From assembly GCA_963681505.1 (NCBI GenBank), contig OY811975.1, positions 9,179,434 through 9,243,433 of the forward strand: a stretch of DNA of 64,000 nucleotides. The letters run 5' to 3'. Shown piece by piece: positions 4,944 through 28,574 of this stretch (within the stretch, counting starts at the first letter, position 1; every line of letters starts with the position of its first letter). Made by a program: the position numbers and the translations under genes. The DNA comes from Eunapius fragilis (taxonomy: Eukaryota > Porifera > Demospongiae > Spongillida > Spongillidae). The notes beneath the pieces were generated by a model. It made no database searches, was not told where the DNA came from, and worked only from the letters and a program-made list of their open reading frames with translations.

Positions 4944-5394
4944 GCATGACTGAGCCCCGCAACGAGCTTATATGTGCTGCATGAGAAGTCCCAAACACTA
5001 TTTCCTGTGACAACATGCAGATCTAGAAATAAACAAACACTCGCAGCGACCGGCAAACAGACGGCGCTGTTTTAATACTTTTAGCATATGCAATTGCCGC
5101 TGTTTGAGGTTTTCCTTCCTCCCTAGACAACTGGTCCAGCAATTTCGGACATCCATAGACGTCTGTACATTGAAAACTCATGTAAAGTATTAGATTTTTT
5201 AAAAACATGAATGCAGTAGGATTATTTTTCAAAATATAAATCATGCATTCTTTTGTTTTTCACTTTCATCTTGAGAGCAGAAGAATCAACAACAAAATTA
5301 ATCACTTTTGCCAATTACGTAATAATCTTATCTTGAGCCAATAATGATTAATAACATGCCAATGGTGGGCGCGTCCTTATGGAGCAAGTTATAG
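4944..5394. other. Duplicated 5' flank (to ~5125), then unassigned spacer
   Basis: 4944-5125 is the same sequence as 19413-19590, upstream of the intact secreted-peptide gene. From 5126 to 5394 I see no gene, only A/T-rich spacer. Confidence 0.5.
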
Positions 5395-5430
5395 CAAGGA
5401 TTATTAACAATTACAGGTTAATAATCCTTG
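5395..5430. mobile_element. 36-bp palindromic micro-insertion with 7-bp target duplication
   Basis: Two 14-bp perfect inverted arms (CAAGGATTATTAAC and its complement) enclose an 8-bp loop. GTTATAG flanks the palindrome directly on both sides (5388-5394 and 5431-5437). Perfect arms plus an abutting direct repeat indicate a transposed unit far shorter than usual MITEs. Confidence 0.55.
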
Positions 5431-5437
5431 GTTATAG

Positions 5438-5808
5438 GTGCTGGTGAGTGTGTGAGTGGGAGGAGCGTGTCGTTTTCTAAATGCTCGTAATGTGCGTCTG
5501 GTTCAAAACGTTTGAAAATTTCTTTCATCGGCGTTCCTATATCGACGAACATGCACTCGGCGTGTATCAACCTGTTCTCTACGACTGCGTAAGTTAACAG
5601 TCTGTTGCTATATATCGCGCATGACAAGTACACCACGCGCGCGCACACAAACATCCACACATACGACTAGATCTTTTTCCTGGGTGTATATTAGGAAGAA
5701 TCTCTTTTCTTTAGCTGATGCAGATTAACTGGTTGGATTGGTCTGTATCTCTAGCCGCTAGTCATTTATGTCATCTGGGTGTGGTCTATAGCCTGGGCAG
5801 AAATGTGT

Positions 5809-5854
<46 letters not shown>

Positions 5855-6049
5855 GTGTGTGTTTGTGTGTATATATGTGTGTGTGCACTTTTTCCTAGGA
5901 TGTATTAGGAGAATCTCTTTATGTAGCTGGTTGGGTTGGTCTATGCGGACTATGCCCTGGGCAAGAAGGAGTTTAAAAAATACTACCGTAAAGTACCACG
6001 AATAAGCTCCCCCCCCCTCCGCCTTATTGTCGTCATCGTACAAGAAGGC
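5438..6049. repeat. Spacer with (GT)n microsatellite at about 5803-5885
   Basis: An interrupted GT tract of about 80 bp lies in the middle. Open frames across it are repeat artefacts. A minus-strand frame at 5418-5660 (80 codons) has no recognisable features and no supporting splice context. Nothing else is supported here. Confidence 0.6.
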
Positions 6050-6347
6050 AACAACAAGCAGTTTCGTGTTCGTTTGATGTCACAAAACCGCGTTGTTGTA
6101 GAGAACAAAACTATTTTCCAAACTCGTACCCAGTCCCACTTGTTCTTGTTCTTGTTGTTGTTCTTGACCACGCATAACTCGGGATAGGAACACTTTTAAG
6201 AAATGAAAATCACACCAATGGCTTCAGAATTCGTTGGCATTCTCGCTTCTGTGGTCAAAACGTCTCGAGGCTACATGACATAAATCGGTGGTTGTGCTAG
6301 CAAATCACGTATAGTTAAGCCTACTGCACTGGCACGACTCGGATAGG

Positions 6348-6379
6348 CAGGGTTGCCGCGATATATCGCGGCAACCCTG
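6348..6379. mobile_element. 32-bp perfect palindrome with 8-bp TSD (micro-hAT MITE)
   Basis: The insert is a perfect 32-bp palindrome, CAGGGTTGCCGCGATA followed by its complement. The 8-bp sequence CGGATAGG flanks it on both sides (6340-6347, 6380-6387). The 8-bp duplication and CAG..CTG ends fit the hAT superfamily. The end resembles the 10841 MITE (CAGTGTTGCCGC), so it appears to consist of just two abutting TIRs with no interior. Confidence 0.75.
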
Positions 6380-6597
6380 CGGATAGGTCATACTTCAACG
6401 AAGTACTAGTAGTATACATGATGTAATCAAATGTGTACGGTCTGGGCACTACACGTAGTGGTAATTAACTGTGGCATGTATCCGGTTTTGCACTACATGT
6501 ATTTAATAACGTGCACGTATGTACAATAATCATTCTTGTGCTTCGATCGTAGTTGGTTTGACGCTCTTTGTAACTTAGTGAAGTTTTTTTAATCAAA

Positions 6598-7007
6598 ATG
6601 CCTTCACGTCAGGAAAAGAACGACGAGCAAAGTACCTCAAAACTCGAGACGACGTATTAAATTCTGCCCGAGCGAGCTACAAAGCAGAGCCTGAAAAGAA
6701 ACGGGGCTCTCTAAACGCAAGGTATCGAGCAGAGCCTAAAAAGGAACGAGCCTTGAACGGTGAGAAGTATCGAGCAGAGCCTGAAAAAAAAAATGGGCCT
6801 CTGAACGTGAGAAGTATCGAGCAGAGACAGAAAAAATAACGGGCCTCTGAACGTGAGAAGTATCGAGCAGAGCCTGAAAAGAAACGGACCTCTCGATGCA
6901 CCAGGTATCGAGCGGAGCCTGAAAAGGAAAGGGCTGCTAAAAGACAACGATATTTGCAGAGTTCAGAACGTGCTCGCTTGGCGAAAAGAGTTAAGGTCAC
7001 TCAAAGG
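6598..7007 (+). pseudogene. Broken exon with 45-bp repeats encoding YRAEPEKKRAS-type units
   Basis: From about 6666 to 6960 a 45-bp (15-codon) unit repeats six to seven times. It codes for variants of YRAEPEKKR followed by a basic segment, a charged helical repeat seen at the N-terminus of some invertebrate transposon proteins. Length changes and stops break the frame. The exon ends at a good donor, GTATGT (7008). The homologous exon of the inverted copy lies at 10440-10560. Function unknown; I infer a DNA-binding or coiled region of a transposon protein. Confidence 0.5.
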
Positions 7008-7171
7008 TATGTCGTACTTGTGCTTGTACCAGTAGCTACCTACGCTTACTAAGCTTGGTTTACAATATGACATTGGTGGCTGAACATTACGGATCATTTA
7101 CGGATCAATTACGATCATCAACTACATCAAATACGCATCGGAATAATGTGCATGAAAAAAAACGAAGGAAA

Positions 7172-7403
7172 CAAGTAAATAAGAATCTTCTCAATGAGAA
7201 AGTTGGTGGGATATAAGATTTGAAGGCAATGATGGTGCAAAAAGCAAGGAAACAAGGTCTGTAACAGTAAGGGAAAATGTCATAGTCCTATATTTAGTAC
7301 ACATAGTATATGCTACAAACGGGCCGCTAAATATAGGACTATGTCATTTTCCCTTACTATTACAGATCCTTGTTTCCTTGCTTTTTGCCTTCTTATTTAC
7401 TTG
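7172..7403. repeat. Foldback (long inverted repeat), copy 1
   Basis: The arms pair around a short loop near 7302-7325. The most regular part is CTGTAACAGTAAGGGAAAAT ... with its complement near 7335-7365, and CAAGTAAATAAGAA pairs with its complement at the outer ends. The same foldback occurs at 10034-10306. Confidence 0.7.
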
Positions 7404-10840: not shown

Positions 10841-10933
10841 CAGTGTTGCCGCGATCCACTTAAGATCAAAGGAATCGTCGAGCTCGATAGTATGGGATCG
10901 ACATATATCGACGACTCGTCAGCGGCAACACTG
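10841..10933. mobile_element. hAT-type MITE, 93 bp, 8-bp TSD
   Basis: The termini CAGTGTTGCCGC are perfectly inverted. The 8-bp target duplication GTTCTCTA lies immediately outside both ends (10833-10840, 10934-10941). The homologous site in the inverted copy (near 6098) has a single TAGAGAAC and no insert, so the empty site is directly visible. The ends and 8-bp duplication assign it to hAT. It encodes nothing. Confidence 0.9.
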
Positions 10934-17960: not shown

Positions 17961-17990
17961 AGTCTCGTTCTCTGGCCCGGGAACGAGACT
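17961..17990. repeat. 30-bp palindrome with GTCTCGTTC arms
   Basis: AGTCTCGTTC and its complement enclose 10 bp. The arm resembles the end of the MULE-like element at 51041 (TAGTCTCGTCCC), so this may be a collapsed remnant. No target duplication is seen. Confidence 0.5.
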
Positions 17991-28547: not shown

Positions 28548-28574
28548 CAGTGGCGGATCCAGAATTCGCCACTG
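28548..28574. mobile_element. 27-bp palindromic hAT-end remnant
   Basis: CAGTGGCG and its complement enclose 11 bp. The left half (CAGTGGCGGATCCAGAAT) is the TIR type found at 12209, 12516 and 63298. It looks like two termini joined with almost nothing between. No clear target duplication. Confidence 0.45.

Follow-up and report, generated by a model that had tools for sequence, protein, structure and literature searches.

The P transposase of Drosophila cleaves its element 17 nt into the terminal inverted repeat (TIR), with a 17-nt stagger (PMC7776569). The joints that excision of P{wa} leaves on the chromosome, as given in Table 1 of Chan et al. (2010), keep 17 nt or fewer of each TIR, carry microhomology or inserts at the junction, and mostly retain intact 8-bp duplications (PMC2895639). 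Here, we examine two short palindromic inserts in a window of 64,000 nucleotides of DNA from the sponge Eunapius fragilis (contig OY811975.1), using searches of the genome (218.9 Mb, 24 contigs).

An earlier note on this DNA had placed palindromic inserts bordered by direct repeats at positions 5395-5430 and 6348-6379, and we find both there. It had grouped them as one class and suggested that they may be the smallest products that a hAT transposase can move. This account is partly supported: the insertions are real, whereas a single class of tiny mobile elements is wrong or unsupported. We put the probability at roughly 80% that the two inserts are different after-effects of DNA transposition, a P-type excision scar at 5395-5430 and a collapsed hAT-like MITE at 6348-6379, and most likely neither is a tiny element moving as such. 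Two testable processes thus take the place of what might have been a new class of 30-bp transposons. The kinds of event involved are already known, and what is new is the set of natural P-type scars in this genome; no title among the matches listed from the open-licence PMC articles dealt with mining an assembly for ultra-short P scars, which is weak evidence of absence.

Palindromes and host repeats in the window

When hairpins with arms of at least 14 nt and loops of at most 8 nt were tallied, the window contained seven centre/loop combinations (a single hairpin may be scored more than once), against none in each of 10 first-order Markov sequences. The host repeats of the two main inserts abut, occupying 5134-6023 and 6022-7388 of the window. 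The features of the first locus are as follows.

5388..5394, + strand: left 7-bp target-site duplication GTTATAG, as read in the window; eight empty host copies have a single GTTATA[A/T]
5395..5430, + strand: 36-bp probable P-superfamily excision scar, made of 21 nt from one TIR, of the A subtype, then a G and 14 nt of the other TIR
5431..5437, + strand: right 7-bp target-site duplication GTTATAG, as read in the window
5134..6023, no strand assigned: host repeat amplified with the scar inside; three copies compared (L010, L016, and L022) are 92.6-96.3% identical and hold the same insert

The 36-bp insert reads CAAGGATTATTAAC-AATTACAG-GTTAATAATCCTTG, that is, two perfect 14-bp arms around an 8-bp loop. 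A search for the empty-site sequence, allowing up to three mismatches, returned the eight host-repeat copies without the insert, a sample selected by querying for the empty sequence itself. The empty copies differ from the filled ones at the last target base, GTTATA[A/T] replacing GTTATAG, and for this reason we regard them as a sister lineage. Copies of the second host repeat that lack the insert at 6348 exist as well (see below), and both inserts are accordingly insertions with target duplications, as had been proposed.

The existence of insert-free copies of both host repeats also bears on the idea that the palindromes arose by chance or are intrinsic hairpins of the repeats that hold them. 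For 5395 and 6348 we give this idea practically no credence, but it does hold for two other groups of hairpins. The 30-bp hairpin at 17961-17990 (AGTCTCGTTCTC...GAACGAGACT), which had been listed as a similar collapsed end, has 47 strand matches at 40 places within three mismatches, and neither the window nor any of the 20 fetched copies has a flanking duplication; 19 of the 20 have both flanks in common and one (L147) only one. It was rejected as a third scar: it belongs to the interior of a dispersed repeat, in which the hairpin is conserved. The second group, a 35-bp hairpin of the form CAAGGATTACTT...AATCCTTG, came to light among palindromes of the form CAAGGATT...AATCCTTG, of which there are 122 sites genome-wide (50 listed). 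All 14 fetched copies (L090-L103) lie in one context with no duplication, and the hairpin was discarded as a second short-element family; its likeness to the scars is confined to its ends.

The remaining palindrome, 27 bp at 28548-28574 with a CAGTGGCGGATCCAG end, had likewise been listed as a collapsed end. Its ends presumably resemble hAT termini, but we could not confirm it as flanked by a duplication: no clear 8-bp duplication is seen, and the sole other exact copy (C5:9095211, about 113 kb away and in the opposite orientation) has the same flanks, so that two copies share the same surroundings.

The parent transposon of the 36-bp insert

The perfect 14-base arm of the 5395 insert has 180 strand matches genome-wide, and these lead to its parent, a transposon of which two copies (L070 and L071; 4507 and 4510 bp) are 99.2% identical and which has a perfect 35-bp TIR, CAAGGATTATTAACTATTACATGGATTGGAATCCG. 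A TIR subtype with A at position 15 (CAAGGATTATTAACAATTACATG) occurs at other loci, and the window insert is of the same subtype. Perfect 7-bp duplications flank all six long facing pairs examined in L070-L074, which range from 845 bp to 7.9 kb. Separate frames of L070 match three Pfam domains above the cut-off, TNP-like_RNaseH_N (1.6e-17), TNP-like_GBD (1.1e-6), and TNP-like_RNaseH_C (6.6e-7), and the Tnp_P_element HTH falls just under it (1.5e-4). The two frames of L071 that were scanned gave no Pfam match above the cut-off, and the five segments scanned with Pfam contained no THAP domain. The 569-aa frame had no direct match in PDB and the parent transposase none in NCBIfam, while with a profile built from 16 relatives the best match was 6p5a, the Drosophila P transposase (6.9e-17), followed by one at 0.041. 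Relatives of the parent transposase comprise 62 matches, including proteins of the sponge Amphimedon queenslandica (33% identity) and the thrips Frankliniella fusca (27%).

On these sequence characters, namely a predicted P-type RNase H core with a GTP-binding insertion, the TIR, and the 7-bp duplication, we assign the 4.5-kb parent to the P superfamily and not to hAT. The two inserts of the window do not, then, form one class as the earlier note had it, the one at 5395 having P-superfamily ends, a 7-bp duplication and a P parent, and the one at 6348 being a hAT-like MITE with an 8-bp duplication.

P-type transposase domains are common to the sponge transposon, Galileo, P, and Pdre2, and the sponge TIR is set apart by its length of 35 bp and its start, CAAGGATTATTAAC. 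A 7-bp duplication is shared with Galileo, whose target is reported as GTANTAC in PMC4168063; the 12 duplications here read approximately G-T-[CT]-N-A-A-C. Pdre2 is described in PMC10983969 with a 13-bp TIR and an 8-bp duplication, against 35 bp and 7 bp in the sponge.

Two of the long loci have a composite structure. In L072:259-8147, 7.9 kb separate facing CAAGGATTATTAAC ends within a perfect 7-bp duplication, GTCACTC; the copy is perhaps nested, and its internal frames, going by motif, are what we take to be retroelement-like. L073 holds two facing pairs, L073:401-1499 (1099 bp) and L073:5251-8446 (3196 bp), and they are probably an inverted duplication of one insertion, since the same target duplication occurs in inverted orientation between them (GTTGAAG and CTTCAAC).

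Short P-type sites and the excision reading

A search for short P-type forms of 25-55 bp counted 53 sites, 50 of which were listed: 39 of the window type, one in a second setting (context B), and 10 others. The 39 have the interior of the window insert or a near variant of it, and since all 12 of those whose flanks were read sit in the 5134-6023 host repeat, they look like one amplified event. The probable scar became high-copy as a passenger inside its host repeat; a scar that rides in this way can mislead MITE annotation. Context B (28 bp, duplication CTCGAAC) is likewise amplified, and none of the 20 matches to its empty-site sequence read as empty.

The 10 other sites each lie in their own surroundings and differ in their interiors. 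At seven of them the flanking 7-mers match, perfectly at five (L077, L085, L131, L135, and L136) and in six of seven bases at two (L132 and L134), for which the chance probability is about 1e-18 if equal base frequencies are assumed; no matching duplication flanks the other three (L107, L129, and L130). A target duplication around truncated TIRs is thus found at the window, in context B, and at seven of the 10 others. Weaker duplications were seen at L021 (5/7) and L083 (3/7), the latter sharing its flanks with L084. The 44-bp forms L129:61-104 and L130:61-104 have the longest arm pairs, with 19-21 nt on both sides, between unrelated flanks, and our guess is that they may be ends joined from two donor sites.

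Short forms that end in inverted repeats and are flanked at several places by 7-bp duplications, with the window form or near variants making up 39 of the 50 listed sites, are what one might expect if these 27-44-bp forms were the smallest units that a transposase can mobilize, that is, ultra-short MITEs. But with every flank-checked member of the 39 in one host repeat, these look like one insertion, and no two of the forms at separate sites agree in both arm lengths and interior. For the same reason, and with the 32-bp form at 6348 unique within three mismatches, the proposal that a hAT transposase moves units of 32 and 36 bp is unsupported. The internal 10-bp transposase binding sites described for Drosophila P elements in PMC10983969 also speak against mobile units of this size, although this argument is weak because, according to the same source, the Drosophila transposase also excises zebrafish Pdre2, which is without those sites. 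We consider an ultra-short MITE very unlikely.

We favour excision scars instead, and measured the retained TIR arms at 14 sites (the window, context B, the 10 others, L021, and L083), allowing one substitution, by which alone the left arm of L131 and the right arm of L021 attain their length. The longest of the 28 arms is 22 nt and 12 are 19-22 nt long; the TIR itself runs to 35 nt, and with both 22-nt values ambiguous by overlap, the ceiling lies at about 21 nt. Between the arms there is an overlap of 1-2 nt at six of the 14 sites (a single base at four of the six, which could be chance) and a filler of 1-11 nt at the other eight. In the 39-bp scar L132:61-99, the filler agrees in 14 of 15 nt with the sequence spanning the scar's own left border between duplication and TIR, and the sole mismatch is the base at which the two L132 duplications differ; this is the one site where templated filler was seen, and it resembles the insertions tied to polymerase theta in PMC2895639. 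Like the P{wa} joints of that study, these sites have a truncated TIR on either side of microhomology or a templated insert, with a target duplication at each outer edge. Unlike them, they have 7-bp rather than 8-bp duplications and arms of up to 21-22 nt rather than 17 nt, and they occur naturally, in a different genome, where one has been amplified within a repeat.

An alternative is that P-type copies shrank by ordinary internal deletion, through slippage or aborted gap repair, and not by the joining of ends cut by transposase. The P superfamily does include copies with internal deletions, such as those of zebrafish Pdre described in PMC10983969, the MITE at 6348 in the same window did shrink between direct repeats, and the overlap at six of the 14 junctions would suit such a process. 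Against it, all 28 arms stop at 22 nt or less despite a 35-nt TIR, for which the chance probability is about 5e-7 for 10 sites under a null of uniform breakpoints that ignores microhomology bias, and the templated filler of L132 fits a cut at a fixed place. So does the distribution of distances between facing neighbours among the first 100 of the 180 listed 14-mer places: 17 pairs span 36 bp, one spans 37 bp, and seven span at least 845 bp (up to 10.7 kb, a pair that may join two different copies), with none of 38-844 bp, a gap that rests on the listed part of the matches and on perfect 14-mers only. Internal deletion appears improbable to us, if less so than an ultra-short MITE.

Under the favoured excision reading, a P-superfamily transposon would have inserted at the 5395 site, duplicating 7 bp, and its transposase would later have excised it by a staggered cut in each TIR, some 21 nt in from the tip, so that single-stranded stretches of TIR stayed behind on the chromosome. 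These tails would then have been trimmed, annealed, or filled and finally sealed by end joining, to give a target duplication, up to about 21 nt of TIR, a junction, up to about 21 nt of TIR, and the second target duplication; the scar would have spread as a passenger of the repeat holding it. No complete P element was seen in any copy of the window's own target site, and excision at 5395 is therefore deduced from the sister sites. The proposed position of the cut comes from the likeness of the arm ceiling to the Drosophila joints, with about 21 in place of 17.

On balance we lean, by a modest margin, towards the view that the transposase of this P-superfamily branch cleaves not 17 but about 21 nt, or two helical turns, inside the element ends, and that scars in assemblies can reveal the cut geometry of a transposase and the end-joining pathway where no transposition assay exists. 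If the excision reading is true, old excision events become recognisable in an assembly, the arm ceiling gives an estimate of the cut position of an uncharacterised transposase, and the microhomology and templated filler of the joints give information on how a non-model organism repairs double-strand breaks.

The 32-bp palindrome and a 103-bp MITE at the same site

The second locus comprises the following features.

6340..6347, + strand: left 8-bp target-site duplication CGGATAGG, from the window reading and host-copy comparison
6348..6379, + strand: 32-bp perfect palindrome, probably a collapsed hAT-like MITE; unique within three mismatches and an exact deletion product of a 103-bp MITE (L128/L002)
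6356..6371, no strand assigned: 16-bp self-complementary unit CCGCGATATATCGCGG, the deletion junction; the 103-bp MITE has two copies of it, as a direct repeat, and the window insert one
6380..6387, + strand: right 8-bp target-site duplication CGGATAGG, from the window reading and host-copy comparison
6022..7388, no strand assigned: second host repeat, of high copy number, that received the MITE; 712 candidates, 40 scored

Genome-wide, no second copy of the 32-bp palindrome was found within three mismatches, and its first 20 bases have 19 strand matches at 15 places. Among 30 loci of the host repeat, chosen by similarity and including the window, all 29 others are without the insert, and 28 of these have one intact CGGATAGG, L050 showing two changes in it. 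One further host-repeat copy, on C2, carries a palindromic MITE of 103 bp at the identical position, with CGGATAGG on its left and AGGATAGG on its right (a 7/8 match, L128). A search across the left junction of the 6348 insert gave only the window and the C2 copy as exact matches; a third match, with two mismatches (L127), was dismissed as a further insertion copy, being an unrelated place.

The 103-bp MITE starts with CAGGGTTG-CCGCGATATATCGCGG and finishes with CCGCGATATATCGCGG-CAACCCTG. Since CCGCGATATATCGCGG reads identically on both strands, its two occurrences in the inverted arms also form a direct repeat, 71 bp apart, and deletion from one 16-mer to the next yields the 32 bp of the window letter for letter. 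This exact relation to a MITE at the same site makes a collapsed MITE the best reading of the 6348 palindrome, and the collapse of a palindrome after insertion, which the earlier note had offered as its other option, fits this locus. The same note had held that a palindrome that is unique, with flanking repeats that also surround unrelated sequence, would make the duplication a matter of chance, a clause that fails here in view of the empty copies and the full-length copy at the same site.

We propose that a copy of a 6022-7388-type repeat would have received a 103-bp hAT-like palindromic MITE, whose insertion duplicated 8 bp, that the segment bearing it persists today in two copies, and that the window copy would have lost 71 bp, from one 16-bp direct repeat to the next, so that just the 32-bp palindrome was left, perhaps through slippage during replication or annealing of single strands across the hairpin. 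With one full-length copy known at this site, the suggested direction of change leans on the full-length copies elsewhere. Five other paired copies of the MITE were seen, two with perfect 8-bp duplications (L008 and L118) and three with none visible (L005, L123, and L126).

The palindrome and the 103-bp MITE could also be two independent insertions at a hot spot, and with only two insertion-bearing copies known, there are no further copies to support shared descent. This would, however, require insertion by the same family at the identical base position, with the duplication the same but for one base and with the two inserts standing in an exact deletion relation, and all 29 of the other host copies examined are empty. 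We hold two independent insertions to be scarcely probable beside the collapse of a single MITE.

The source of a transposase for ends of the 6348 type was looked for beside one related end (L004), which adjoins a frame with a BED zinc finger (2.5e-11). The finger was all that was found there, and the 4 kb beyond it (L163) contained open frames of at least 100 aa but no matching end.

The resemblance that had been noticed between the ends of the 6348 palindrome and a longer MITE at 10841 is borne out (CAGGGTTGCCGCGAT and CAGTGTTGCCGCGAT, respectively). The latter spans 10841-10933 (93 bp), with CAGTGTTGCCGC ends and an 8-bp duplication, GTTCTCTA. We take the 6348 element to match the class of hAT-type palindromic MITEs, with which it shares a CAGGG-type end, an 8-bp duplication at some copies, and a near-perfect palindrome of 96-103 bp. 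It differs from them in the shortening of the window copy to 32 bp, the stretch from one 16-bp direct repeat to the next having been lost.
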